NCBI GenBank assembly: GCA_027067385.1
Contig: JAMOVV010000050.1
Location: 1-50,321 of the forward strand
Direction: 5' to 3'
Length of the DNA: 50,321 nucleotides
DNA from: Desulfarculaceae bacterium
GTDB lineage: Bacteria > Desulfobacterota > Desulfarculia > Desulfarculales > Desulfarculaceae
In this document: piece after piece, positions 7,699 through 41,280 of the stretch
How the letters are laid out: each line of letters starts with the position of its first letter
Numbering within the stretch: the first letter of the stretch is position 1
Notes under the pieces: model-generated
Databases searched by the model: none
Seen by the model: only the letters and a program-made list of their open reading frames with translations
Told to the model about the DNA's origin: nothing
Made by a program: the position numbers and the translations under genes

Positions 7699-8799
7699 TC
7701 AGTCCAACCGGTAAAAGTCATTCCAGCCATTGAGCAGCCGGCATCCCTGGTCCTCCAGCAGGACCATCTGTTCCAGGCGGACCCCGCCCCATCCCGGCAG
7801 GTAGATACCCGGCTCGATGGTAAAGACCATGCCCTGGAGCAGCACGTCGCTGGAGCCGGGGGACAACGAGGGCGCTTCGTGGGTGGCCAGCCCCACCCCG
7901 TGGCCCAGGGAGTGGCCGAAGTTTTCGCCAAAGCCGGCTCGCTCGATCACCCGGCGGGCCAGGGCGTCGGCCTCGGCCCCGGTCATACCCACTTCGATGC
8001 CCGCGATGGCCTCTTCCATGGCCCGGCGCACCACCGGGTAGACCCGCCGGAAGGTGTCGTCGGCCCGGCCCGGCCCGCCCACCACCACGGTGCGCGAGAT
8101 GTCGCTGCAATAGCCGTCGACCCTGGCGCCCACGTCAAAGAGGGCGCAGCGGCCGGGCTGCAGGGAGCGGCCGCCCGGCTGAGCGTGGGGCTCAGCCGCG
8201 TTGGGGCCGGCGGCCACGATGGGCTCAAAGGCCGTCCCCTCGGCCCCGGCGTCCTCCACCGCCCGGGTGATGGCCAGGGCCAACTCCCGCTCGCTGCGTC
8301 CGGCCAGGTCCTGGGCCAGCATATCACCCAGCACCCCTTCCATCAGCTCCAGGCTGGCGGTGATGGCGGCCACCTCGGTGGAGTCCTTGCGCAGGCGCAG
8401 GGAGCCCACCAGCCCCCGGGTGGGCTTTAGCTCCACCTGGTCCAGCTCCCGGGCCAGGGCCTGTTGCCACATCACCAACATGCCGTCGGCCTCGATGGCC
8501 AGGCGCTTGATACCCAACTCGGCGGCCAGGGCGGCGGTCTCCTTGGCCAGCCCCTGGCGGTGCAGGCGCAGCTCGAACAGGGGGGCCTGCTGGCCGGCGC
8601 TGAGCTGGTAGCGGCTGTCGGTGACCAGCACCGCCGCGGTAGGGGCTATGAGCAGCCAACCGGCACTCTCGCCCCACTGCCCGTCCGCCTGGGTGAAGCC
8701 GCTTAGGTAGCGCCGGTTGGCCGGCAGGGTGACCACCAGGGCGTCCAGCTCCATTTGCAGCAGCAGGGAGCGAAGTTTTGTCAGTCGTTTCTTGTGCAT
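7699..8799 (-). CDS. M24 family Xaa-Pro aminopeptidase
   Basis: GHSLGHGVGLATHEAPSLSPGSSDVLLQGMVFTIEPGIYLPGWGGVRLEQMVLL; DVGARVDGYCSDISRTVVVG metal-ligand motifs. Confidence 0.92.
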   Translation of the reverse strand: MHKKRLTKLRSLLLQMELDALVVTLPANRRYLSGFTQADGQWGESAGWLLIAPTAAVLVTDSRYQLSAGQQAPLFELRLHRQGLAKETAALAAELGIKRLAIEADGMLVMWQQALARELDQVELKPTRGLVGSLRLRKDSTEVAAITASLELMEGVLGDMLAQDLAGRSERELALAITRAVEDAGAEGTAFEPIVAAGPNAAEPHAQPGGRSLQPGRCALFDVGARVDGYCSDISRTVVVGGPGRADDTFRRVYPVVRRAMEEAIAGIEVGMTGAEADALARRVIERAGFGENFGHSLGHGVGLATHEAPSLSPGSSDVLLQGMVFTIEPGIYLPGWGGVRLEQMVLLEDQGCRLLNGWNDFYRLD

Positions 8800-8957
8800 A
8801 TCCTAAAGCACCTCGCGGCGGCCGCGCCCGGCGGGCCTGGTGGGAACCGATCAATCTTTATAGCATTGGGCCACAGGGCTGGCAAGGCGGCGGCCGTCGC
8901 CAGCCTTGCCTGGCCAGGTTCGGTGGGGTATTAATGAGAGGCCCCGAGGGAGGTTGC

Positions 8958-10373
8958 ATGGACCGGCTCTCCGCCATGATCGCAGAACAGGCTGGCTACC
9001 TGGCCCGGCGTTTGGCCGGCCGCACCCCGGTGGCCGCCCGGCGGCCCGTGGTGGGCGACAGCGCCCGGGAGCCGCGGGACGCGCCAGAGCCGACTCCGGC
9101 CGACCCGGCCCTGCACCAACTGGCCCAGGCGGTGATCCAGGCCGCCCTGAGCCTGGAGGAGGCCGCGGACGATATCTCCCTGGCCGAGCTGGAGGCCGAG
9201 ATGGGCCGGGTGACCCGCCGGCTGCTGGACCAGCGGCCGGACCTGCCGCGCCCGGTGGCCGCCCGCCTGGCGGCCGAGGTGCCGGCCCTGGTGCGCCTGC
9301 CGGCCCTGGCCCGCCTGGCCCGCCAGGGGCTGGGGGTGGACCCGGCGGTGGTGGCCGGCCAGGATGCCGACGGCATCGTGACCAACGGCTCGCCGGCCTT
9401 TGCCCGGGTGCTGGAGGACCTGCGCCGGGTGGCGGCCACCGAGCTCAGCGTACTGCTGGAGGGCGAGAGCGGCACCGGCAAGGAGCTCCTGGCCCGGCGG
9501 CTGCACCGGCTCTCGCCCCGACGGGAGGGGCCCCTGGTGGCTCTCAACTGCGCGGCCCTGCCGCAGGACCTGCTGGAGAGCGAGCTATTCGGCCACGTCA
9601 AGGGCGCCTTTACCGGGGCGGCCGCCTCGCGGGAGGGCTACCTGGGCCGGGCCCACGGCGGCACCCTGTTTTTGGACGAGATCGGCGAGGCCTCCCCCGA
9701 GCTCCAGGTGACACTCCTGCGGGTCTTGGAAGACCGGCTGGTGACACCGGTGGGCGGCCGGCAGGGGCGGCCGGTGGACTTCCGCCTGGTGTGCGCCAGC
9801 AGCCGCGACCTGCGTAAGGAGGCCGAACAGGGCCGCTTCAGCCAGGCCCTGCTCTACCGCATCCGGGTGGTGCCGCTGCGCCTGCCGCCGCTTCGCCGGC
9901 GGCCAGAGGACCTGCCGGCGCTCATCGACTATTTCCTGGAGCGGGCCGGGCGGGAGACGGGAAGCCAGCGCCGCTTGAGCCGCCGGGCGCGCCGGGCGCT
10001 CTTGGCCTACCGTTGGCCCGGCAACATCCGGCAGTTGCAGCACGTGATCCAGCGCCTGGTGGTTTTATCGGAGGGGCCGGTGATAGAGGTGTCTGACCTG
10101 CCGGCCCAGATCGCGGCTCCCAAGGCCGGGGCCTACCAGCGGCGGCTTGAGGACCTGCCGGACATTCCGCGGGCCCGGGTGGCCGACCTGGCCCGGCTGC
10201 TGGCCCAGGCCCAAGGCGGCGAGGTGGTCAACCGCGACGTGCGCCGGCACCTGGGCTGCTCCGACTCCACGGCCCGCAAAATGCTGCGGGGACTGACCCG
10301 GGCCGGGGTGCTGAAGGTAGTGGGCGATCACAGGGCGCGGCGTTACCTGGTAGACGATATCGAGGAGAAGTGA
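8958..10373 (+). CDS. Sigma-54 interaction (AAA+) transcriptional activator with non-Fis C-terminal winged-helix-like domain
   Basis: [15 protein letters not shown] Walker A, GAFTGA loop, [11 protein letters not shown] Walker B; ATG 8958 preceded by GGAGG; C-terminus [58 protein letters not shown]. Confidence 0.9.
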
Positions 10374-10374
10374 C

Positions 10375-11187
10375 ATGGCGATCAAGGGGCGTATCGGCTT
10401 GGTGGGCGGCGGCAACATGGGCTCCGCCTTGGTTAAGGGTTTGCTGGCCGCCGGGCTGGCCGGGGCCGACCAGGTGGTGGTGGCCGAGCAGGACCAGGCG
10501 CGCCGCGCCGCCCTGGCCGCCGAGACCGGCGTGGCGGTGGTGGCCTCGGCCGGGGAACTGGACAACCTGGCGGTGCTCATCCTGGCGGTGAAGCCCCCCG
10601 ACATCCCGGCCTGCGCCCGCCAGGCGGCCGGCGCGGTGGAGCCCGGCTCCCTGGTCATCACCCTGGCCGCCGGGGTGCCCCTGGCCAAGGTGGCCGGGGC
10701 CTTTGACCCCGACCAGCCCCTGGTGCGGGCCATGCCCAACACCCCGGCGCTCATCGGCCAGGGGGTGACCGCCCTGGCCCCCGGCGCAGGGGTGGGGCAA
10801 GCCGACCTGACCTTGGCCACCGACATCTTCGGCGCGGTGGGACAGGTGGTGGTGGTCACCGAAAAGGCCCTGGACGCGGTGACCGGGCTCTCGGGCTCCG
10901 GGCCGGCCTATGTCTTTTTGTTCATCGAGGCCCTGGCCGACGCCGGCGTGGCCCAGGGGCTGGACCGCGCCATCGCCCTCACCCTGGCCCGGCAGACTGT
11001 GGCCGGCGCCGCCCGCCTGGCCATCGAAAGCGGTGAGCACCCGGCCACCCTCAAGGACCGGGTCACCTCGCCCGGCGGCACCACCATCAGCGGCTTGCAC
11101 GTGCTGGAGCGCGGCGGGCTGCGCGGCCTGGTGATGGACGCGGTGGCCGCGGCCACCGACCGCAGCCGCGAGCTGGGAGAGTCCTGA
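10375..11187 (+). CDS. proC: Pyrroline-5-carboxylate reductase
   Basis: IGLVGGGNMGSALVKGLL, RAMPNTPALIGQGVTAL, LSGSGPAYVFLFIEALADAGV, VTSPGGTTISGLHVLERGGLRG. Confidence 0.95.
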   Translation: MAIKGRIGLVGGGNMGSALVKGLLAAGLAGADQVVVAEQDQARRAALAAETGVAVVASAGELDNLAVLILAVKPPDIPACARQAAGAVEPGSLVITLAAGVPLAKVAGAFDPDQPLVRAMPNTPALIGQGVTALAPGAGVGQADLTLATDIFGAVGQVVVVTEKALDAVTGLSGSGPAYVFLFIEALADAGVAQGLDRAIALTLARQTVAGAARLAIESGEHPATLKDRVTSPGGTTISGLHVLERGGLRGLVMDAVAAATDRSRELGES

Positions 11188-11240: not shown

Positions 11241-12701
11241 CTAGTGCTGCGTGGGGGTCTGGCCCAGGGCGGGCAGGGTGACGGTGAAGGTGCTGCCTTG
11301 GCCCGGCTGGCTGTCCACCGCGATGTGGCCGCCGTGCTTGTTTACCACCCGCTTGACGATATCCAGGCCCAGGCCGGTGCCCACGATATGGCGGGTGTCC
11401 TGGTTCTTCACCCGGTAGAAGCGCTCGAAAATCTTGGCCGCCTCCTCGGGCGTCAGGCCCAGGCCGGTGTCGCTCACCTGGATCACCACCGCGTTGTCTT
11501 GCGACCGGGCGGTGACGGTGATTTCGCCGCCGTCGGGGGTGTACTTCACCGCGTTGCTCACCAGGTTCACCAGCACCTCCAGGAGCTCCGGGGCCACCCC
11601 CATTACCTTGGGTAGGGGGCCCTCGGCCTCCAGGCGCAGGGTTTGGTCTTTTTGGCGGGCGCGCTCGGCCAGCAGGTCCACCGCCTCTTCCAGCAAGGGT
11701 GCTAAGTCCACTTCCTCGGGTTCGCCCAGGGCCCCGGCCTCGATCTTGGCCAGGTCCAACAGGTCCTTGCTCAGGTTGATGATGCCGGTGACCCGGGCGC
11801 GGGCCCGCTCCACCAGGTGGGCCTGCTTGGGGTTGAGGGGACCGGGCAGTTCCTGGCCCAGCACCTGGAGCTGGCCCAGCACCGCCGATAGGGGACTGGC
11901 GATCTCGTGGGCCACGGTGGAGACGAACTCGTTCTTCAGAGCGTCGAGCCGGCGCCAGGCGGTGACGTCGTCAAACACGGCCAGGGCCCCCACCAGCAGG
12001 CCCCGTCCATCCACAAAGGGCACGCAGGTGACCTGCAGGAACACCTCGTCGCCTTCCACCGCGCCGGTGGTCTGGCAGGTGACCGCCTGGTAGTCGCCCT
12101 CGCTCTGGGCCAGCACCCGGCCCATGGTCTCCACCACCTCGGGGCAGGGCAGGGCCTGCTCCAGCGGCTTGTCGATCACCTGGTCTTCCACCAGGCCGAA
12201 GGCCCGGCGCAACGAGGGGTTGGTGAGCACCACCCGGCCCTCGGCGTTGGTAACCATCACCCCGTTGGACATGGCGTCCACCAGGGCGCGGGTGCGGCTT
12301 TTTTCGATGGCCATGTCGCGCAGGGTGCGCACCTGCTTCACCAGGCGCTCCACCACCAGGCGCAGCTCCTTGGGCTTGAACGGCTTGGCCAGGAAATCGT
12401 CGGCCCCCTGCTTCATGGCCGCCACCGCCTTTTCCAGGGTGGCGTAGCCGGTGATGACCACCACGGCCAGGTGGGGGTACAGGCGGCGGGCCTGCTCCAA
12501 GAACTCCATGCCGTCCATCACCGGCATCATCAGGTCCACCAGCACCAGGTCGGCCGCGTCCTGCTGCAAGGCCGCCAGGCCCTCCCGGCCGTTGACCGCT
12601 TCGCTCACGCGCGCCCCGTCGGGCTCCATTACCCGGCGCACCGCCTGGCGCACCCGGGCTTCGTCGTCCACAACCAAGATATGCAGATCGTCCGCTTCCA
12701 T
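11241..12701 (-). CDS. Receiver-PAS-histidine kinase
   Basis: ILVVDDEARVRQAV...LVLVDLMMPVMDG...KPF receiver; PAS; STVAHEIASPLSAVLGQL H-box; NLVSNAVKYTPDGGEITV and DTGLGLTPEE ATPase boxes. Confidence 0.92.
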   Translation of the reverse strand: MEADDLHILVVDDEARVRQAVRRVMEPDGARVSEAVNGREGLAALQQDAADLVLVDLMMPVMDGMEFLEQARRLYPHLAVVVITGYATLEKAVAAMKQGADDFLAKPFKPKELRLVVERLVKQVRTLRDMAIEKSRTRALVDAMSNGVMVTNAEGRVVLTNPSLRRAFGLVEDQVIDKPLEQALPCPEVVETMGRVLAQSEGDYQAVTCQTTGAVEGDEVFLQVTCVPFVDGRGLLVGALAVFDDVTAWRRLDALKNEFVSTVAHEIASPLSAVLGQLQVLGQELPGPLNPKQAHLVERARARVTGIINLSKDLLDLAKIEAGALGEPEEVDLAPLLEEAVDLLAERARQKDQTLRLEAEGPLPKVMGVAPELLEVLVNLVSNAVKYTPDGGEITVTARSQDNAVVIQVSDTGLGLTPEEAAKIFERFYRVKNQDTRHIVGTGLGLDIVKRVVNKHGGHIAVDSQPGQGSTFTVTLPALGQTPTQH

Positions 12702-14251
12702 TAGGTCTCCTCCGGAGTGCGGCTCATTTCGTACTTGCTGGCGAACTCGGCCAGGGTCCCCTGCAGGTGCTCCGGCAGGGTCACCTGGAAGGTGGTGCCC
12801 TGGGGCCCGGTTTCCTTGACCCGGATTCGGCCGCCGTGCCGGGTGACCAGGCCGTAGACCACGCTGAGGCCCAGGCCGGTGCCCTTGCCGATGTCCTTGG
12901 TGGTAAAGAAAGGATCAAAGACCCGCTCGATGTTTTCGGCGGCGATACCCGGGCCGGTGTCGCTGATCTCCACGAACCGCTGGCCGTGGTCGTCCAGGCC
13001 GGTGCGCACCGTGAGCCGGCCGCGTCCCTCCATGGCGTCCAGGGCGTTGGTAAGCAGGTTGATGAACACCTGGCGCAGCAGTTGTTCGTCGCCCTCGATG
13101 GTGAGGGGCTCCGGGTGGTAGTGGCGCGCCACCTCCACGTGCAGGAACACCGAGTCGTCCCGGATGAGCTTGAAGGCGTCTTCCACCACCCGGTTGAGGT
13201 CCAGGTCCTCGATGCGGATTTCGCTTTGGCGGCTGTAGTCCAGCAGGCCCCGCACGATGTCCCGGCAGCGGTCGGCGTCCTCCATGATGCATTCCAGGTC
13301 CTGGCGTACCGGGTCGCCCGGCGGCAGACTCTCGGCCGCGGTCTCGGCAAAGACGGTTATGCCGGTGAGCGGGTTGTTGAGCTCGTGGGCCACCCCGGCG
13401 GCCATGCGCCCCAGCCGGGCCAGCTTGTCCGACTGCACCACCTGCATGCGGGCCTGGGCCAGGCGGCCCTCCATCTTTTGGATTTCCCGCAGGTCGGTGA
13501 AGATACCCACCGTGGCCACCGGCTTGCCGTCGCGCTTGACGTCGGCCGCGTTGACCCGCACCGGAATCTTGTTGCCCTGGCGGTCATGCACGTAGGTATG
13601 GACGCCCAGGGCCTGTCCGCCGTGTTGGTCCAGGGCCTGGCGCAGCTCGCGCAGTTGGCTGATGGGCGACAGGATGCGCAGGTTCTCCCCCACCAGCTCG
13701 TCCACCTCGTAACCCAGCACCCGGGTCACGCTGCGGTTGACAAACAGGATGTCGCCGTTGAGATCGGCGGCCACCACCACCCCCACCAGGGAGTCCAGCA
13801 GGCGGTTAAGGAACTCGTTGCTCTCCTTGAGGCTGCTCTCCAGGCGCTTGGTCTCGGTGATGTCCCGGATGGATTCGATCACCGCCCGCACCTCGCCGTC
13901 CGGCCCGGTGAGGGGGGCCATGTGGACCTCCTCCACGATTCTTTGGCCGTGGCGGTCCTGGTACTCGTGCAGGTTGAAGTGTCCCCTTTGGCCGGCCAGG
14001 GCCTCGGGAAAGCGGCAACGCTGGCGGGGGCAGGGTTCGTCGATCTGGTGGAACACCTGGTAGCAGCGCCGCCCCACCACCTTTTGCGAGGGCACGGCGT
14101 AGCGGGCCAGGAAGGCCTGGTTGGCCGCGCGCACCACCATGTCGCACCCCAGGATCAGGGTGGGGATGGGATGGTCCTGGAACACCCGGGCGTGGACCTC
14201 CAGCTCCAGGGGGTCTTGCGCAGATGGCGTTTTCTGGGCCATGGCCGTCAT
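12701..14251 (-). CDS. PAS domain sensor histidine kinase (two PAS)
   Basis: [21 protein letters not shown]-box, [53 protein letters not shown]-terminal PAS carries a Cys cluster ([19 protein letters not shown]). Confidence 0.93.
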
Positions 14252-14258
14252 CCCTTGA

Positions 14259-14738
14259 TCACGGTGAGCTGAAGTACTCGGCCAGGGCCTCCAGGGCGGT
14301 GGGGCACTGGGCCGGTTCGAAGAGCATGAACAGCGAATGCACCACGGCGCCCAATCCCAAGGGGGCCACCGCGACCTGCCGCAGCCCCTCCAGGGCCTGG
14401 GAGACGATGCCGTAGCGGTCGCCGAAGTGCGGACCCTGCAAGTGGATCAAACCCACCGGCACCGGTTCCCGGCTAAGCTCCAGCCCGGCCCGCTCCAGCA
14501 CCGCCAGCAGCGCGGGTAGTTGGTCATGGGCCAGGCACAGGGAGATGCTCCAGGTATCATCCTCGGGCCAGGCGCTGGTATGGATGACCCTCGGCGGCGG
14601 GTCCACCCCGGCCAGGCTGCTTTGCAGGGCCACCAGGTCGGCCAGCCGGCCCTGGCCGGTCACCAGGACCAGTCCGTGCTCCACCTTGAGGCCGTAGGTC
14701 TTGATGGGCCGCTCGGAATAGATGGCCACCGTCTCCAC
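14259..14738 (-). CDS. Uncharacterised protein, probable tandem ACT-like domains
   Basis: 159 aa; ACT-like repeats (VLVTGQGRLADLVALQSSLAGV...SISLCLAHDQLPALLAVLERAGLE; HLQGPHFGDRYGIVSQALEGLRQVAVAPLGLGAVVHSLFMLFEPAQCPTALEALAEYF). Confidence 0.55.
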   Translation of the reverse strand: METVAIYSERPIKTYGLKVEHGLVLVTGQGRLADLVALQSSLAGVDPPPRVIHTSAWPEDDTWSISLCLAHDQLPALLAVLERAGLELSREPVPVGLIHLQGPHFGDRYGIVSQALEGLRQVAVAPLGLGAVVHSLFMLFEPAQCPTALEALAEYFSSP

Positions 14739-14741
14739 GTC

Positions 14742-15281
14742 TCAGACCTCCTCCCGGGTGCGGGAGCTCTGCACCACGGCCATGCGGGCCTCCGGCGGTG
14801 AGAGTCCCTCGGGCAGGTCAAAGTCCCGGGCCAGGATGTCGAGGGTGGCGGCCAGGTGCTCCTGGCGCACCACCAGCACCACGGCTGAAAGCGAGGTGGC
14901 CAGCCCCAGGGGGGTGAGCCCGGCGCGAGCCAGCGAGGCCAGGGCGGCCGCCGGCAGCCCCAAGTCTTGCGAGAGGGGAAAGAACTGCACCAGGACCACC
15001 TGCCGGATGAGGCGCGGGGCGCCCAGGCCGTGGGCCTCGGCCGCCCGCCGGGCCAGGTCCCAGGCCTCCTCGGCCACCGCGGGCTCCAGGCACAGGGCCA
15101 CCCGGCCCGCGGCTGCCTTGCACGGCAGGTCCAGCACCAAGGGAAGGTTGACGCGCCGGCGGGCCAGTTCGGCCAGCAGCTCGGGCAGGGTCGCGGCCCA
15201 GTCGGGGGTGGTCTCCAACAGGCACAACTCGTGACTGCACTTCAGACCGGCTATGGTGGGCTGCGGATTCACTGCGCTCAC
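14742..15281 (-). CDS. Uncharacterised protein, probable degenerate tandem ACT-like domains
   Basis: 179 aa; HELCLLETTPDWAATLPELLAELARRRVNLPLVLDL...VALCLEP...VQFFPLSQDLGLPAAALASLARAGLTPLGLATSLSAVVLVVRQEHLAATLDILARDFDLPEG. Confidence 0.5.
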   Translation of the reverse strand: MSAVNPQPTIAGLKCSHELCLLETTPDWAATLPELLAELARRRVNLPLVLDLPCKAAAGRVALCLEPAVAEEAWDLARRAAEAHGLGAPRLIRQVVLVQFFPLSQDLGLPAAALASLARAGLTPLGLATSLSAVVLVVRQEHLAATLDILARDFDLPEGLSPPEARMAVVQSSRTREEV

Positions 15282-15299
15282 GAGGGCCGGTCGGCGACC

Positions 15300-15686
15300 C
15301 TACTTGATCAGTTCTTCCACGATGGATACCAGCTTGTCCAAGTCCACCGGCTTGGCGATGTAGTCGTCAGCCTCCACCTGCATGCCGTCGGCGTGGGTGT
15401 AGGTGGTGGAATTGACCGCCGAGCCCACCGCGGTGAGCAGGATCACCGGTATGTCTTGCAGGGCGCTGTCGCCCTTGATCTCGGCGCAGAGTTCATAGCC
15501 GTTTTTGCGGGGCATCATGACGTCCAAGATCACCAGGTCGGGCTTGCGCCGGCCGAGGCTCTCGGTGGCCTCCTGGCCGTCGTAGGCCTTGCCTACCTCG
15601 AAGCCCTTGGCCTCCAGGTTCATGCTCACGGCCTCGACCAGATCGGGATCATCGTCCACCACCAGCACATACTTGGGGTCGGCCAT
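15300..15686 (-). CDS. Single-domain response regulator (CheY-like)
   Basis: MADPKYVLVVDDDPDLVEAV...DLVILDVMMPRKNGYEL...VILLTAVG...DDYIAKPVDLDKL; ATG 15686 preceded by AAGGAG. Confidence 0.93.
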   Translation of the reverse strand: MADPKYVLVVDDDPDLVEAVSMNLEAKGFEVGKAYDGQEATESLGRRKPDLVILDVMMPRKNGYELCAEIKGDSALQDIPVILLTAVGSAVNSTTYTHADGMQVEADDYIAKPVDLDKLVSIVEELIK

Positions 15687-15740
15687 AATCGTCTCCTTTG
15701 CAGCGGGGTTGTCCACGGCGCCCGCTGTTTTGGGCGGTAT

Positions 15741-16664
15741 TTACAACTGGGGCCGGGGCAGCAGCTCGGCCCGCTCTAAAATTTCGGGAACCTTGTGCTC
15801 CCACTCGATGGCCATGACGTGTACCCCGGCCACGCCGGGAATCTCGCGCAGTTGCTGCACCTGTTCGCACAGCAGCTTGATGCCCTCGTCGGCCTGCTTT
15901 TCCTTGGGCGCGCCGGCGATGCGCGCCACGATGTCGTCGGGCACGTCCATGCCCGGGACCTTGGAGGCCATGTAGCGGGCCATGCCGGCGCTCTTGAGCG
16001 GGGTGATGCCGGCCAGGACCTTCACCTTTTCGGTGAGCCCCATGTCCACGGCCTGGTGCATGTAGTCGCGGAACTTGTCCATGTTGTAGATGCACTGGGT
16101 CTGGATGAAATCGGCCCCGGCCGCCACTTTCTTGGCCAGGCGCATCACCCGCAGCTCAAAGGGATCGCCAAAGGGGTTGGCCGCCGCACCGATGAACATC
16201 TTGGGCGGGGTGTCGATCTCGGCCCCGCCCTGGAACTTGCCCTCGTCGACCATGGCCCGCACCATCTGGATGAGCTGCATGGAGTCGATGTCGTGCACGT
16301 TGGCGGCCATGGGGTGGTCGCCGAACTTGGGGTGGTCGCCGGAGAGGCACAGCATGGTGTTGATGCCCAGGGCGTGGGCCCCCAGGATGTCGGACTGCAT
16401 GGCCAGGCGGTTGCGGTCGCGGCAGACCATCTGGTAGTTGGGCTCCAGGCCCATCTCCTTGACGACGAGCGAGGCGGCCCAGGAGGACATGCGCACCACG
16501 GCGGTCTGGTTGTCGGTGATGTTCACCGCGTCCACCAGGCCCACCAGGTGCTTGGCCTTTTGGCGCACGTCTTCGGGGTTGCTGCCGCGCGGCGGTCCCA
16601 CCTCGCCGGTGACCGCGAAATGGCCGGCCGCCAGGACTTTTTCCAGGTTACTTTGGGTCTTCAT
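15741..16664 (-). CDS. metF: Methylenetetrahydrofolate reductase
   Basis: VTGEVGPPRG, VNITDNQTAVVRMSS, CRDRNRLAMQSDILGAHALGINTMLCLSGDHP, AGADFIQTQCIYNMDKF. Confidence 0.92.
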   Translation of the reverse strand: MKTQSNLEKVLAAGHFAVTGEVGPPRGSNPEDVRQKAKHLVGLVDAVNITDNQTAVVRMSSWAASLVVKEMGLEPNYQMVCRDRNRLAMQSDILGAHALGINTMLCLSGDHPKFGDHPMAANVHDIDSMQLIQMVRAMVDEGKFQGGAEIDTPPKMFIGAAANPFGDPFELRVMRLAKKVAAGADFIQTQCIYNMDKFRDYMHQAVDMGLTEKVKVLAGITPLKSAGMARYMASKVPGMDVPDDIVARIAGAPKEKQADEGIKLLCEQVQQLREIPGVAGVHVMAIEWEHKVPEILERAELLPRPQL

Positions 16665-17329
16665 TAGATCAAGTCCTCCCTCACTATGCGGCGGGGGCCG
16701 CCGTCGCGCGCGCTACGCCAGTCCTTGGCCGGCATGATCTGCTGGTAGAGGTCGGTGCGGCCCAGGGCCTTGAGCCGGTCCCAGATGAGCTGCCAGGCGC
16801 AGTCCACGTCCGGGGCGATTTCGCACTTGCCGCCGGTGGAGCCGCCGCAGGGGCCGTTGAAGATGCGCTTGGAGCAGCGGGCCACCGGGCAGATGCCGCC
16901 GGTGTAGGCCAGCACGCACTCGCCGCAGCCCTGGCAGCGCTCGGCCCAGACCCCCTGGCGCTCCGAGGCTCCCATGAAGGTGGTGTTGACCATGGGGTAT
17001 ACCGGTTTGTCCAGGTAGCGTCCGGCCACCGTCTGCACCCCGCAGCCGCAGGCCATGGAGCAGACCGCGTCGTATTGGTCTATGGTGCGGGCCAGCTCCT
17101 CCACGTACTCGGGATCGCACTGCCGCTCCAGGGTCATCTCCACCACTTCGAGCTTCTTGCCTTGCTGCAAAGAGCCCATCTGCAGGGCGGAAGCCAGTAT
17201 GCCCACTTCCTTGCGTCCGCCGGCGTAGCAGACCGTGACGCATTCGTTGCACCCCAACAACAGGATTTTGTCGTAGGGGGCCACGTAGCTCATGATCTCC
17301 TGCATGGGCTTGCGTTGAGCTGTGATCAT
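16664..17329 (-). CDS. metV: Methylenetetrahydrofolate reductase C-terminal/MetV-type Cys-rich subunit
   Basis: LLGCNECVTVCYAGGRKEVG, ACGCGVQTVAGR, RCQGCGECVLAYTGGICPVARCSKRIFNGPCGGSTGGKCEI. Confidence 0.88.
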   Translation of the reverse strand: MITAQRKPMQEIMSYVAPYDKILLLGCNECVTVCYAGGRKEVGILASALQMGSLQQGKKLEVVEMTLERQCDPEYVEELARTIDQYDAVCSMACGCGVQTVAGRYLDKPVYPMVNTTFMGASERQGVWAERCQGCGECVLAYTGGICPVARCSKRIFNGPCGGSTGGKCEIAPDVDCAWQLIWDRLKALGRTDLYQQIMPAKDWRSARDGGPRRIVREDLI

Positions 17330-17340
17330 GATCGTCTCCC

Positions 17341-17769
17341 TCAGGCGGCTTTGCCGGTCTTTAGCTTGATGGGGTTGGGTCCCAGGGACCGGATGTGCTC
17401 GGTGAACTCGGCGGCCAGCTCGGCGAACCTCGCGCCCTGGCCGGCGGCCATGTGCACCATCAACACCCGCCCGCCGCCGATGCCGATATCGTCAAGTAGT
17501 CTCCCAACGTATTCCACGCGCTTCTTAGCACGAAGGTTTCCATTGATAAAGTGGCAATCGCCTTCCAGGCATCCGGCCACCAGCACCCCGTCGGCCCCTC
17601 TCTGCAGGGCGCGCATCAGGTGCAGGGTGTCCACCTTGCCGGTGCAGGGCACCCGGATCACCCGCAGGTTGGGCGGATAGCTCAGCCGCAGGGCGCCGGC
17701 CATGTCGGCGGCGGTGTAGGCGCAGTACTCACAGGCGAAAGCCGCCAGTATCGGTTCGAATTGGCTCAT
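17341..17769 (-). CDS. mvhD: MvhD-type hydrogenase/heterodisulfide reductase iron-sulfur subunit
   Basis: ILAAFACEYCAYTAADMAGALRLSYPPNLRVIRVPCTGKVDTLHLMRALQRGADGVLVAGCLEGDCHFINGN; start ATG 17769 overlaps the hdrA stop. Confidence 0.92.
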   Translation of the reverse strand: MSQFEPILAAFACEYCAYTAADMAGALRLSYPPNLRVIRVPCTGKVDTLHLMRALQRGADGVLVAGCLEGDCHFINGNLRAKKRVEYVGRLLDDIGIGGGRVLMVHMAAGQGARFAELAAEFTEHIRSLGPNPIKLKTGKAA

Positions 17770-20700
17770 GAGAGCACTCCTTGCAGCAGGGCCTCCACCC
17801 CGCCTAGTATCTGGTCGTCGCTGAAGCCCTGCAGCTCGATGGCCTTGGCCGGACACTCGGCGGCGCAGACTCCGCAGCCCAGACACTTGTCCGGGTCGAT
17901 CTCGCTGTAGCCGTCGGCGTTGATGAAGGGCACCCCCACCGGACAGGCCCGCACGCACACCAGGCAGGCGGCGCAGAGCTCGGCCTTGACCTTGGCCACC
18001 GAGCCGCTGACGCTGAGGCTCTCCTGGGCCAGCAGGGTGAGCGCCCGGCCGGCGGCGGCCAGGCCCTGGGTGCGGGCCTCGTCCAGGGACTTGGGCGACA
18101 GCAGGGAACCGGCGGCGAAGATGCCCGGGGCCGGGGTGTCCACCGGCCGGACCTTGACGTGCTCCTCCAGCAGGAATCCACCCTCGCCCTGTTGCAGGTG
18201 GAATATCTCGGCCAACTCCTCGGTGGCCTCCTCGTCCACCACCTGCGGAGTGGAGAGCACCAGGGCGCTGGGCTCTACCCGCAGGGGGCGATCCAGCACC
18301 TTGTCGGTGAAGGTGACCGTGAGCTGTTCCCCGTTTAAAGCCACCTGGGGCGGATCGTCGGGGCTGTAGCGCACAAAGAGCACCCCTTGCTCGCGGGCCT
18401 GGCGGTAGAGGTCTTCGGCCCGGTAGGGCATGCGCATGTCGCGGTAGAGCACGATCACCTGGGCGTCGGGCCGCAGCTCCTTGAGCCACAGGGCGTTTTT
18501 CACCGCGCTGCGGCAGCAGATGCGGCCGCAGGCCGGGTTGGCCTGGTTGCGCGAACCCACGCACTGGATCATCACCACGGTGTCGAGCTTGTCGTCGGCG
18601 CCGTCGCCGGCGGCCAGTAGGTCGCCCAGCTCCAGTTGGGTCATCACCCGGGGGTCCCGGCCGTAGAAGAATTCATCGGGCCGGTACTCCTTGCCGCCGG
18701 CGGCCAGGATGGTCACTCCGTGCTCGATCTCCTGGAAATACATGCCCGGGCCGGACTGCACCGAGGTGGTGAAGGCGCCCACCGTGCCGCGGTGTTCCAC
18801 CACCAGGGCGTCGGTGATCACCTGGATGCCTTCATGGTCGGTAACCCGCTGAACCATGTCGTCCAGGAAGGGAGCCACCGGCTGGCCGTCCAGGGTGCGT
18901 TGGGTCTTGCGGGCCAGGCCGCCCAGTTGGGGGGCGCGCTCCACCAGGTATACCTTCTGCCCCTGGTCGGCCAGGGCCAGGGCGGCGCTCATGCCGGCCA
19001 CCCCGCCGCCCACCACCAGGGCGTCGTGGTTGATGCGGCGGCGGTGCTGGCCGATGGGCGTGGCCGCCAGGACCTCGCCCAGGGCGATCTTGATCAGGTC
19101 CACCGCCTTGGCCGTGGCCGCGGCCGGGTCGTCGGCGTGCACCAGGGCCACCTGGTCGCGGATATTGGCCAACGACACCATGGCCCGGTTGAGCCCGGCC
19201 CGGCGCACCGTCTCGGCAAAGAGCCGGCCGTGGGTGCGGGGGCTGTAGCCGGCCACCACCACCCGGTTCAACTCGTGCTCGCCGATGGCGCGTACCAGGT
19301 TGTCCAGGCCGCCGCTGCCCGCGGACAGCTCCAACTCGGCCACGTGGACCACCGAGGGTAAAAAGCGCACCGCCTCACTCACCTGGTCCAGGTCCACCAC
19401 CGAGCGCACGTTGCGTCCCCAGTCGGCGAAGAAAATCCCCACCCGGGGCTCCTGGCCGCTGGTGTCGCGCTCCGGCGGCAGGTCCTCGTCGGCGGCCAAC
19501 ACCCGGGGACGGGCCAGGTCCCCGCTGGCCAGGCAGGCGGCGGCCGAGCCCAGCACGATGGAGTCGGGGATGTCGCGGGGGCCCAGGGCCATGCCGCAGG
19601 CGTAGACGCCCGGGCGGCTGGTGGCCACCGGCCGGAAATCATCGCTGGCCACAAAGCGGTATTGGTCCAGCTCCACCCCCAGCACCTGGGCCAGGGCCGG
19701 GGCGTCGGCCGGGGCGCAGAAGCCGGTGGCCAAAACCACCAGGTCCAGGTGGGCCTCGGTCTGCTGGCCGGCGTCGTCCACGTAGGACAACAGCAGGTCG
19801 CCGGTGGCCTCGTCGCGGGTCACGGTGTGGGGGCGGCAGCGGATGAACTGCACTCCGGACTGGCTCTTAACCCGCTGGTAATATTGCTCGTAGTCCTTGC
19901 CCATGGGCCGCATGTCCATGAAGAATATGGTGGCCTCCAGGTCCTGGGCAAAGTGCTCGGTGGCCCACACCGCCTCCTTCATGGCGAACATGCAGCACAC
20001 CGACGAGCAGTAGGGGTTGCCCGGCTCCTGCATGGTGCGGCTGCCGGCGCACTGGATCCAGCCGATGCGCTGGGGCCGCTTGCCGTCGCTGGGGCGCACG
20101 AACTCGCCGGCGCTGGGACCGGCCGGCGACATAATGCGCTCCAGCTCCAGGCTGGTGATCACGTCGTCGAACACGCCGTAGCCGTAGGATTCGGCCAGGG
20201 CCGAGGCGTCAAACATCTCGGCCCCGGTGGCCAGGATCACCGATCCCACCTCCACGGACGTGGACTGGACCGCCTGGTCCAGGACGATGGCGTCGGGCTC
20301 GCAGACCTCCAGGCACTTGCCGCAGTCGGTGCACTTGTCCCGGTCGATGGAAAAGGCGGTGGGCACCGCCTGGGGATAGCGCATGCAGGTGGGCGACTGG
20401 TGGTCCAGGCCGGGGGTGAAGATCACCGCGCCCTCGTCGCAGGCCTCCAGGCAGGCGCCGCAGGCGCTGCAACGGGTGATGTCGATGTAGCGCGGGGTGG
20501 TCTCCAAGAGGGCGGTGAAGGCGCCGGGCTCGCCCGCGAGCTTGGTGATGGTGGTCAGCGGCAGCACCTGGATGTCCAGGGCCTCGGCGCTGGGGACCGA
20601 TTCGGGCCGCAGGTAGCAGATCTGGCAGTCGTTGGTGGGGAACTGCCGGTCCAGCAGGGGAACGAAGCCGCCCAAGGCCGGCGCTTTGTCGATCACGTAT

Positions 20701-20819
20701 ACCCGGCGGCCGGCCTCGGCCAGGTCCAGGGAGGCCTTTATGCCGGCGATGCCGCCGCCGATGACCAGCACCGAGTTGGCGGGCTGGGAGCTATGGTTGT
20801 CGGCCATGGGAATTCTCAC
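17766..20819 (-). CDS. hdrA: Double HdrA-like FAD/4Fe-4S oxidoreductase (QmoA-like half fused to HdrA-like half)
   Basis: Two GGGIAG/GGGVAG FAD motifs (VLVIGGGIAGIKASLDLAEAG; ALVVGGGVAGMSAALALADQG), four CxxCxxC-type ferredoxin motifs, HdrA-type middle domain (NRVVVAGYSPRTHGRLFAETVRRAGLNRAMVSLANIRDQVALVH); start GTG 20819 or ATG 20807. Confidence 0.9.
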   Translation of the reverse strand: MRIPMADNHSSQPANSVLVIGGGIAGIKASLDLAEAGRRVYVIDKAPALGGFVPLLDRQFPTNDCQICYLRPESVPSAEALDIQVLPLTTITKLAGEPGAFTALLETTPRYIDITRCSACGACLEACDEGAVIFTPGLDHQSPTCMRYPQAVPTAFSIDRDKCTDCGKCLEVCEPDAIVLDQAVQSTSVEVGSVILATGAEMFDASALAESYGYGVFDDVITSLELERIMSPAGPSAGEFVRPSDGKRPQRIGWIQCAGSRTMQEPGNPYCSSVCCMFAMKEAVWATEHFAQDLEATIFFMDMRPMGKDYEQYYQRVKSQSGVQFIRCRPHTVTRDEATGDLLLSYVDDAGQQTEAHLDLVVLATGFCAPADAPALAQVLGVELDQYRFVASDDFRPVATSRPGVYACGMALGPRDIPDSIVLGSAAACLASGDLARPRVLAADEDLPPERDTSGQEPRVGIFFADWGRNVRSVVDLDQVSEAVRFLPSVVHVAELELSAGSGGLDNLVRAIGEHELNRVVVAGYSPRTHGRLFAETVRRAGLNRAMVSLANIRDQVALVHADDPAAATAKAVDLIKIALGEVLAATPIGQHRRRINHDALVVGGGVAGMSAALALADQGQKVYLVERAPQLGGLARKTQRTLDGQPVAPFLDDMVQRVTDHEGIQVITDALVVEHRGTVGAFTTSVQSGPGMYFQEIEHGVTILAAGGKEYRPDEFFYGRDPRVMTQLELGDLLAAGDGADDKLDTVVMIQCVGSRNQANPACGRICCRSAVKNALWLKELRPDAQVIVLYRDMRMPYRAEDLYRQAREQGVLFVRYSPDDPPQVALNGEQLTVTFTDKVLDRPLRVEPSALVLSTPQVVDEEATEELAEIFHLQQGEGGFLLEEHVKVRPVDTPAPGIFAAGSLLSPKSLDEARTQGLAAAGRALTLLAQESLSVSGSVAKVKAELCAACLVCVRACPVGVPFINADGYSEIDPDKCLGCGVCAAECPAKAIELQGFSDDQILGGVEALLQGVLS

Positions 20820-20848
20820 TTAAATAATAGAGTTCAAGGGCCGCATAA

Positions 20849-21721
20849 TTACTTCTGAAGCGCATCGAGAATATCGGGCAGGCGCTTTTCCCAGCCGGTG
20901 GTAACCAGCAGGGCGCCGCCGCACAACGGCCGCAAGCCGTCGACCGTCTCGGCCGCGATCTTGACGCACTCGTCGGGCCGGTTGCTGGCCTGGCGGATGC
21001 GCGCGATGGTCTCTTCCCTGATGTTCATGCCCGGCAGGTTCTGGTTGATGTAGCGGGCCATGCCCACGCTCTTGAGCAGCAGCACCGAGGCGATCACCGG
21101 CGCTCCGAGATCACCGGCCTTTTGCATGAAGGCCCCGAAGTCGTCCAGGGCAAATACCGGCGGAGCCACCAGGAAGGCCGCACCGCTATCCACCGCCGCC
21201 TTGGCCTCGCCGATGCGCACCTGGGCCTCGGCCTGGTCGGCCCAGGGCTCGATGCGCGCCCCGGCGCAGAACTTGGGCGCGCCCTTGAGTTCCATGCCGG
21301 CCAGGTCCTTGCCCTGGCCCAGGCTCTGGGCCGCCTCCAGGAATTGGGCCGGCGTGAGATCGCCCACCGCCTTGGCCTCCAGGTGGTCGCCCATCTCGAT
21401 GGGCTCACCGGCCACGGCCATGACGTTGGCCACACCCAGCACGTGGGCGGCCAGGAGGTCACCTTGCAGGGCCAGGCGGTTGCGGTCGCGGCAGGAGAAC
21501 TGCACGATGGGATCGAGCCCCTGCTGCTTGAGCGTCACCGCCCCGCCCAGGGCCGAAAGACGCATTACCGCGTGGCTCAAGTCCGGGACCAAGACCGCGT
21601 CCACCCGCCCCTTGATGTGGTTGGCGTTGGCCACGAAGCCGGAGAGGTCCACCCCCTTGGGGGTCTCCATCTCGGCGATGAGGATAAAGTCCTTGCTACC
21701 TAGGGTGTCTGCGAAGCCCAT
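20849..21721 (-). CDS. Divergent MetF-like (methylenetetrahydrofolate reductase family) protein
   Basis: FILIAEMETPKGVDLSGF, FSCRDRNRLALQGDLLAAHVLGVANVMAVAGEP, KSVGMARYINQNLPGMNI; ATG 21721 preceded by GGAAGG. Confidence 0.85.
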   Translation of the reverse strand: MGFADTLGSKDFILIAEMETPKGVDLSGFVANANHIKGRVDAVLVPDLSHAVMRLSALGGAVTLKQQGLDPIVQFSCRDRNRLALQGDLLAAHVLGVANVMAVAGEPIEMGDHLEAKAVGDLTPAQFLEAAQSLGQGKDLAGMELKGAPKFCAGARIEPWADQAEAQVRIGEAKAAVDSGAAFLVAPPVFALDDFGAFMQKAGDLGAPVIASVLLLKSVGMARYINQNLPGMNIREETIARIRQASNRPDECVKIAAETVDGLRPLCGGALLVTTGWEKRLPDILDALQK

Positions 21722-38598: not shown

Positions 38599-39147
38599 CT
38601 AGTGGGTGATCATCACCGCGGCGGCCACGGTGGCCACCCAGCGGCCGTCCTTGGGTCCGGTGGCGGTCTGGGTTATCTCCTGGGTGCGCACGATCTTGCC
38701 GGACATGCGAAACACCTGGCGCTTCTCGTCCCAGCTCTGGTCCACGTCAAAGTCGATGCCCAGGGTGGTGGCCAGCATCTCGGCGGCCAGGTCCTCGGCG
38801 TAGTCGCCGGCGGTGCGGGCGTTTTGGCCGAAACCCTTGTGCTCCGACAGGTAGCCGTGCGAGGACTTGTCCGAGGGCAAGGCCACCCCGATGGAGCTGG
38901 AGATGAGCCGGTTGGGCTCGTTGGTCTCGTTGCGGGCCAACACGCAGAAAAGTATCTGCCCCGGCACCAGCATAGCCTGACCCTTGGCCCGCGAGATGAG
39001 CTTGCAGCCCGGCGGAAAGATGGAAGAGACGTGCACCAGGTTGGCCCCGGCGATGCCGGCGGCGCGCAGGGCCAGCTCAAAGGCGGCCAACTGCTCCCGG
39101 TGAACCCCCTTGCCCTTGGTGAGGTAGATGTACTTAGGCAACATCAT
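38599..39147 (-). CDS. pdaD: Pyruvoyl-dependent arginine decarboxylase
   Basis: [54 protein letters not shown] with SS processing site; [26 protein letters not shown]. Confidence 0.93.
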
Positions 39148-39316
39148 GGTGACCGTCCTGCTTGGGCCCAGCGCCGCCTTATGGCCGCCAGGTCTTATTA
39201 TCTATGTAGCCGGCGGCCGTCAACTGCTAAAATTACTCCGGCGAGCTTGAATCACCGGGACGGCCTTCATATACTGCCGGTATCATCATCGCCCCACTTA
39301 AGCCGGGAGAGTCAGC

Positions 39317-40186
39317 TTGGGCCAACGAGTCATCACCTTTGGCGGGCGGGAGCAGCCCCGGCTGGCGTCGGCCGCGGCCGGGATCATCCCGGCGCCGCTG
39401 GAGGCCACCGTCTCCTACGGCGGCGGTGCGGCCCTGGGCCCGGGGGCCATCATGTCGGCCAGCGGCCAGATGGAGCTCTACGACGAGCTGCTCGGCGAGG
39501 AGCCCATCGCCCGGGGTATCTACACCCACCTGGCGGTGGACGTGTGCGGCGAGACCCCAGAGGTGCTGGAGCGGGTGCGCCGCCGGGTGGCCACCGAGCT
39601 GGCCGAGGGCCGCCTGCCGGTGGTCATCGGCGGCGAGCACACCGTTACCCTGGGGGCCCTGGCCGCGGTGATCGAGCGCCACGGCACCGGCTTCACCCTG
39701 CTCACCCTAGACGCCCACCTGGACCTGCGCGACTCTTACCAGGGCCGCCAGCTCTCACACGCCTGCGTCATGCGCCGCGCCCTGGAGATGGGCATCGCGG
39801 TCAGATGGTTGGGCACCCGTTCCTGCTCGGCGGCCGAGGCCGAGTTCGCCGCCGCCCAGGGCCTGGAGCCCATGTGGGCCCGCCAGGTGCACCAGGACGG
39901 CGACTGGCTGGACCAGGCCTTGGCCGGCCTGAGCGGCCCGGTGTACCTCAGCCTGGACGTGGACGGGCTGGACCCATCGCTTATGCCCTGCACCGGCACC
40001 CCGGAGCCGGGCGGGCTGGACTGGAACCAGGTGACCGACTGGCTGCTGGCCGTGGCCGGGAGCCACCGCATCCTCGGCATGGACCTGGTGGAGTTGGCCC
40101 CGGTCAACGGCTGGCCGGCCAGCGACTTCACCGCCGCCCGCCTGCTCTACCGGGCCCTGGGACTGGCCCTGCGGGGACCGCGATGA
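39317..40186 (+). CDS. speB: Agmatinase / ureohydrolase family, TTG start
   Basis: [47 protein letters not shown] manganese-ligand motifs. Confidence 0.92.
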
Positions 40187-41280
40187 AAAATCCCTCCCCA
40201 CCCCAGGGGCCGCCGATCGCCCCGCCGCCCATGGACGGGCCCCTCACCGCCCGCGACCTGGTGGATAACCACTTCAGCGCCTACAACGCCGCCCGGCTGC
40301 GCGAGGCCTGCCAGCTCTGGGCCCGCCGCCTGGCCGACGACGACGTGCAGGTGGGGCTCACCCTCACCGGCGCCCTCACCCCGGCCGGCCTGGGACCATC
40401 CTGCCTGGTGCCCCTGGTGCGCCGGGGGTTCGTGGACTTCATCGTCTCCACCGGGGCCAACCTCTACCACGACGCCCACTTCGGCCTGGGACTGGCCATG
40501 CACCGCTCCAGCCCCCACGCCGACGACCGCAAGCTGCGCCGCCAGGGGCTGGTGCGCATCTATGACGTCGTCATGGAATACCGCGTGCTGCTGGAGACCG
40601 ACGCCTTCTTCCGCCAAATGCTCACCGCCCCGGAGTTCGCCCGGCCCATGGGCTCGGCCGAGTTCCACTACCTGGCCGGGCGCTATCTCGGCCAGCGGCA
40701 AAAGCTGCTGGGACTCGGCGACCTGAGCCTGCTGGCCGCCTGCTGCCAGATGGAGGTGCCCGTCTACACCCCCAGCCCGGGCGACTCCTCCATCGGCATG
40801 AACGCCGCCGCCGCGGCCCTGCAGGGCAACCCCTTCGCCTGGGACGTGCACCGCGACGTCAACGAGACCGCCGGCCTCATCCTGGCCGCTAAGGAATCCG
40901 GCCAAAAGACCGCCGTGGTGATCCTCGGCGGCGGCTCGCCCAAGAACTTTATGCTGCAAACCGAACCCCACCTGCAAGAGGTCCTGGGCATCGCCGAAAA
41001 AGGCCACGACTTCTTCGTGCAGATCACCGACGCCCGACCCGACACCGGCGGACTCTCCGGGGCCACCCCCAGCGAGGCGGTGAGTTGGGGCAAGATAACC
41101 CCCGAGGCCCTGCCCGGCAACGTGGTCTGCTACACCGACACCACCATCGCCCTGCCGCTGATCACCGCCTACCTCATCGAGACCCGCGGGCGCCGGGAGC
41201 CCAAACGGCTCTACCAGCGCCGGGAGGCGGTCCTGGAGCTGTTGCGCAGCCGGGCGGCCGCGCCGCCGCAGCCCGGCTAG
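40183..41280 (+). CDS. Deoxyhypusine synthase-like protein
   Basis: [51 protein letters not shown] (catalytic Lys region); ATG 40183 overlaps speB stop. Confidence 0.92.

Follow-up and report, generated by a model that had tools for sequence, protein, structure and literature searches.

The closest described counterparts of the gene row considered here are the MetVF-HdrCBA-MvhD systems of Sporomusa ovata and Moorella thermoacetica, in which a methylenetetrahydrofolate reductase (MetV and MetF) is joined to a flavin- and iron-sulfur-bearing electron-transfer module. In S. ovata, pull-downs show MetVF, HdrA, and MvhD interacting (PMC9430772). Loci with hdrA-mvhD are also found in sulfate reducers that carry MetF and HdrA, such as Desulfobacterium autotrophicum HRM2 and Seep-SRB1g. 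A figure legend for HRM2 (Fig. 4) names two regulatory genes next to its hdrA-mvhD loci, a “CheY-like regulator” and a “putative regulatory protein” (PMC2702500), and HdrABC is described as adjoining metF in Seep-SRB1g (PMC10553843); the relevant passages of both papers leave the regulatory genes uninterpreted and do not mention ACT domains. The linkage of enzyme and HdrA in sulfate reducers is already known from these reports. The stretch analyzed here, called the window, is a whole contig of 50,321 nucleotides (JAMOVV010000050.1, or C50, 50.3 kb) from a Desulfarculaceae bacterium, whose genome comprises 206 contigs and is 86% complete. In it, a MetVF-HdrA-MvhD module continues directly into a cassette of signaling genes.

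Ten open reading frames, all on the minus strand, follow one another in the order MetF2 (a MetF-like protein), double HdrA, MvhD, MetV, MetF, a single-domain response regulator, the tandem-ACT proteins ACT1 and ACT2, a PAS-PAS histidine kinase, and a REC-PAS histidine kinase. All ten genes of the earlier note were recovered at 11241-21721, with the short gaps and overlaps it had described (−4 to +57 nt between neighbors). Domains were called with the Pfam and NCBIfam libraries, which support every enzyme and two-component assignment. The row is probably one functional unit, in which MetVF works on a two-flavin HdrA-MvhD module and a dedicated phosphorelay with metabolite sensors controls it. 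The basis for this at the level of sequence is that all the parts are present, the phosphorylation sites are intact, the tandem-ACT folds are predicted, and the linkage is deeply conserved.

The conservation of the linkage was followed from two sides in 395 genomes of one phylum, to which all statements on distribution refer. A search with a profile of ACT2, followed by a reading of the DNA around the matches, gave 43 ACT loci, Desulfarculaceae included. In 41 of them, spread over 11 families, the response regulator and then ACT come immediately after MetF on that strand (families, such as f9, f35, f51, and f53, are the genome search’s own grouping). The two exceptions are L103, in which the ACT gene is unlinked, and L112, which lies at a contig end. 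The full order of ten genes recurs in several Desulfarculaceae genera and in other families, far beyond what chance would produce. The kinase pair usually stands behind the ACT genes; several f51 loci do not have it adjacent, and L117 has it at the other end of the row, upstream of MetF2.

The second survey was begun from the response regulator alone so that selection for met genes would be avoided. It returned 131 matches at E ≤ 1e-30 in 113 genomes. At least 73 of these are within 3 kb of a MetV match, and 123 of the 131 (123 of the 129 resolvable) have a MetF-family or MetV gene at a distance of about 10 kb or less, as judged by reading most loci or from measured distance; two, G310 (contig end) and G076:C84, could not be placed. 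The rough chance level for such proximity is about 2%, given a few 20-kb met loci per genome of 3-4 Mb. In Desulfococcus multivorans, the genes of the pathway are reported to be dispersed (PMC5109826). The tie between the signaling genes and MetVF-HdrA-MvhD that had been proposed is borne out by both surveys, and the signaling genes are generally not linked to unrelated operons.

One could consider the signaling genes neutral neighbors that stay together through vertical descent only. Distances of the response regulator, ACT2, and the kinases do track those of MetF (Mantel r 0.70-0.90), as vertical descent would have it, and some met clusters have no signaling genes at all. This explanation is nevertheless very improbable, since the ACT linkage spans so many families and the association survives rearrangements (L117, L121, L133/L169, L218, and L219). 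Some of the linked loci also have a MetF lineage that is only about 40% identical (e.g., L211, L214, L217, and L218), and the persistence of the linkage at that distance means that the association is with MetF function rather than with a single gene lineage.

On the enzyme side, the row encodes an already known reductase, the Hdr-type MetVF enzyme, minus HdrBC. It shares with the Sporomusa and Moorella system MetV, MetF, MvhD, and a two-flavin HdrA with one Glu/Lys signature site; it differs in that the window’s contig has no HdrB or HdrC and has, in the same row, an extra MetF-like gene and the signaling cassette. MetV adjoins MetF, and MvhD is within the same cluster. The first half of HdrA contains an inserted ferredoxin domain, and its E227 and K281 are invariant in 33 aligned sequences. 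The protein aligns with the HdrA of 5odc, in which the matching residues, E356 and K409, form the HdrA bifurcation signature. By this alignment, E227 and K281 are the Glu/Lys pair that marks bifurcating flavins, so that at least one such signature is present, in half 1. The second half carries a C-terminal ferredoxin domain and keeps the Lys (K774), while its Glu position is a Gly and varies among relatives. The absence of hdrB and hdrC from this DNA holds for the contig, on which no HdrB-type CCG domain was found, and does not extend to the genome, which encodes many CCG proteins elsewhere. Genes of the CdhD corrinoid-protein family are also found elsewhere in the genome, which is consistent with a Wood-Ljungdahl pathway in this organism.

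HdrA varies among the other met clusters. Several have a longer form (about 1414 amino acids) with an inserted Fer4_20 and Pyr_redox_2 domain resembling GltD; this insert is about 460 amino acids long (e.g., L107:1975-3369). In L117, the HdrA gene (13625-16666) has an early in-frame TGA across which homology continues, probably a selenocysteine codon, as reported in other sulfate reducers.

Residues of the receivers and kinases were assessed over 34-55 relatives. The response regulator retains D10, D11, D54, T84, and K111, with D54 present in 54 of 54 sequences. In the PAS kinase the phosphoacceptor H289 is invariant (34/34), as are D56 and H265 of the REC-PAS kinase (36/36), and both kinases have the phosphoacceptor His and an ATP-binding domain. 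The first PAS domain of the PAS kinase has three conserved Cys residues (Cys63, Cys74, and Cys79), which suggests that it may sense redox state. The response regulator is itself distinctive: an insert with the signature TxYxHxxGM precedes its conserved Lys. This motif occurs in 68 of 165 REC open reading frames, a biased sample with some duplicates drawn from loci gathered through met and ACT searches; 64 of the 68 are beside a same-strand MetF, 1 is at a contig end, and 3 (L042, L044, and L045) are away from MetF and adjoin a tandem-ACT gene. In these last three, which include contig C43 of the window’s own genome (L044:9766-10872), the tandem-ACT gene and the insert-bearing response regulator form a divergent pair with no met genes.

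The proteins labeled “ACT-like” in the earlier note give no match of their own in Pfam or NCBIfam, and the label is correct: profile search and predicted structures agree on a tandem-ACT fold. A profile of ACT1 relatives matches the tandem ACT of the aspartokinase 3l76 with an E value of 1.2e-27. The AlphaFold2 models have predicted local distance difference test (pLDDT) scores of 90.4 for ACT1 and 93.6 for ACT2, and the best Foldseek match of both is 5yei_B (E 1.1e-9 and 5.3e-9, respectively). The best matches in the Protein Data Bank (5yei, 3ab4, and 2zho) are aspartokinase regulatory subunits, at 10-19% identity. Across 43 sequences, ACT2 has invariant E9, Y15, G102-P103-H104, and D107-R108, and the GPH..DR motif with E9 and Y15 is a plausible, putative ligand site. 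In many loci, including L034 and L037 of the Desulfarculaceae, ACT1 and ACT2 are joined in a single frame, about 340-400 amino acids long. An ACT1 paralogue upstream of a second Desulfarculaceae met locus seemed at first to belong to this system; it is not counted as evidence, since in L040 it stands behind a PaaK-type ligase, a pairing also found away from met genes. Tandem-ACT genes beside a PaaK-type CoA ligase were seen in L119, L122, L124, and L040 and belong to a broader family of aspartokinase-like ACT proteins that stand on their own.

ACT domains usually act as allosteric regulators of enzymes. The two proteins could therefore be allosteric subunits of the reductase complex, with the two-component genes separately regulating the same operon, an arrangement that would also suit the fact that the near-constant neighbor of metF is the response regulator and not the ACT genes. 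This is improbable, since the ACT genes go with the response regulator rather than with the enzyme genes. The pair of the two persists without met genes in the three genomes mentioned above, and the fused ACT protein remains with the response regulator where the kinases are not adjacent.

If the ten genes are instead one controlled unit, the PAS kinase, with its Cys-bearing first PAS domain, and the REC-PAS kinase would respond to a redox or electron-acceptor signal by adding phosphate to the lone receiver or removing it. Binding of a small metabolite to the four ACT domains may gate either the receiver or the kinases. The kinase signal and the metabolite signal would converge on the receiver. 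As a protein-protein effector, the receiver could then set how fast, or in which direction, the methyl-branch enzyme runs; alternatively, it could hand its phosphate to a separate DNA-binding regulator.

Several observations weigh against this interpretation. Six relatives of the response regulator have no met genes nearby (L181, L182, L197, L206, C43 of the window’s genome, and G002:C1). There are MetVF-HdrA-MvhD clusters with no signaling genes, such as L143, L144, L179, and the second copy in the window’s genome, on C31 (L130). The ACT gene is unlinked in L103, and L140 and L142 have the response regulator and kinases with no ACT gene; L142 is the met cluster of the same genome as L103. Gene linkage is not mechanism. 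Finally, the Wood-Ljungdahl proteins of Desulfobacteraceae are reported to be constitutive across substrates (PMC11887813), an observation that argues against a simple transcriptional on/off switch; within the proposed unit, it weakly favors control of activity or direction over such a switch.

The role of transcription has to be weighed with care. In families f9 and f53, seven loci (L097, L105, L108, L110, L111, L112, and L113) encode an NtrC-type regulator with REC, sigma-54 AAA+, and Fis domains immediately behind the REC-PAS kinase, and a similar one is present in L106 (f35). A transcriptional output is thus present in at least these loci. That the linked response regulators lack a DNA-binding output domain is correct within the window’s cluster and fails for these relatives, so the missing domain is not proof of post-transcriptional control. 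Could the output be purely transcriptional, with the kinases and receiver feeding an NtrC-type sigma-54 activator of the met operon that is encoded elsewhere in this organism? The genome has 24 NtrC-type matches from which such an activator might be drawn. Against this, no clear Desulfarculaceae orthologue of the f9 regulator was found (the best matches reach at most 49%, and none is outstanding), nor was a consistent sigma-54 promoter upstream of MetF2, where only L140, L100, and L160 score 9-10 of 11. Together with the reported constitutive expression just described, this leaves a purely transcriptional output a possible but rather unlikely explanation.

A further variant concerns the sensor. 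In 12 loci without ACT, a protein resembling shikimate dehydrogenase (AroE) adjoins the REC kinase or the response regulator, near met genes (L145, L146, L149, L150, L157, L186, L191-L194, L198, and L209). The catalytic dyad of AroE is a Lys and an Asp. When these proteins are aligned to solved structures, the Asp is lost in 12 of 12 (GxNTD changed to N or H), and the Lys is lost as well in 5 of 12. Nine of these genomes were found to have an additional AroE copy, and these copies, like the AroE of the window’s genome, keep both residues (10/10). This suggests that the pseudo-AroE may be a dead enzyme that replaces the ACT pair as sensor. Such an alternative would exemplify the recruitment of metabolic enzymes as sensors in bacterial two-component signaling.

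The genes of the row are listed in Table 1. Two starts are slight corrections of earlier coordinates: the response regulator most likely begins with the ATG at 15683, and MetF2 at 21721. MetF2 holds the first position in most loci compared.

Table 1. Genes of the MetVF-HdrA-MvhD and signaling row, in gene order from MetF2
Gene	Coordinates	Strand	Description
MetF2	20849..21721	-	290 amino acids; divergent methylenetetrahydrofolate reductase homologue, first gene; PF02219 53 bits
Double HdrA	17766..20819	-	1017 amino acids; two halves with flavin adenine dinucleotide (FAD)/[4Fe-4S]; NF040770 in three stretches
MvhD/FlpD iron-sulfur subunit	17341..17769	-	PF02662 161 bits
MetV, methylenetetrahydrofolate reductase iron-sulfur subunit	16664..17329	-	PF12225 (MetV C-terminal) 130 bits
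MetF, methylenetetrahydrofolate reductase catalytic subunit	15741..16664	-	PF02219 139 bits
Single-domain response regulator	15300..15683	-	PF00072; family-specific insert TxYxHxxGM...ADDY
ACT1, tandem-ACT, aspartokinase regulatory-subunit type	14742..15281	-	179 amino acids; profile search and predicted structure
ACT2, second tandem-ACT protein	14259..14738	-	159 amino acids; predicted structure and invariant columns
PAS-PAS histidine kinase	12701..14251	-	HisKA and HATPase_c
REC-PAS histidine kinase (HKREC)	11241..12701	-	N-terminal REC, PAS, HisKA, and HATPase_c

The junction of MetF and the response regulator (57 nt) has no terminator-like site. A scan of the minus strand for terminators gave few matches, all within genes, and their total was not clearly above that of shuffled sequences. 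No known RNA family, riboswitches included, reached threshold in the operon or its relatives. Outside the ten genes, no conserved neighbors were found except generic sigma-54 activators. In the window, a receiver-less sigma-54 activator followed by proC (8778-11187, plus strand) is convergent with the cassette and is not a conserved neighbor of it. Farther away, an open reading frame of 892 amino acids (38602-41280, plus strand) has a deoxyhypusine-synthase domain confined to its C-terminal part, and its N-terminal 550 amino acids have no Pfam match at the cut-off used.

In sulfate reducers that oxidize their substrates completely, the Wood-Ljungdahl pathway runs near the thermodynamic limit, in some of them in either direction. 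The conservation of the row across the phylum suggests that this central carbon pathway has a control system yet to be described. A search of the open-access literature found no paper that joins ACT domains, response regulators, histidine kinases, and sulfate reducers, and the signaling half appears to be undescribed there. The conserved phosphorelay and its ligand-sensor-like proteins offer named, testable genes for the question of how the methyl branch is controlled, and the cultured relatives in which they are accessible include Desulfocarbo indianensis and Dethiosulfatarculus sandiegensis.

Two known systems help to place the cassette. In Desulfococcus multivorans, two-component genes at the side of hmc/tmc likewise put kinases and response regulators beside an electron-transfer complex; that case differs from the window in its enzyme, in its DNA-binding response regulators, and in that no ACT proteins are reported (PMC5109826). 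The regulatory (beta) subunit of aspartokinase has, like ACT1 and ACT2, a tandem ACT fold without a kinase domain. Unlike aspartokinase itself, the two proteins of the window have no amino-acid kinase domain and consist of ACT only, and they are linked to a receiver and histidine kinases.

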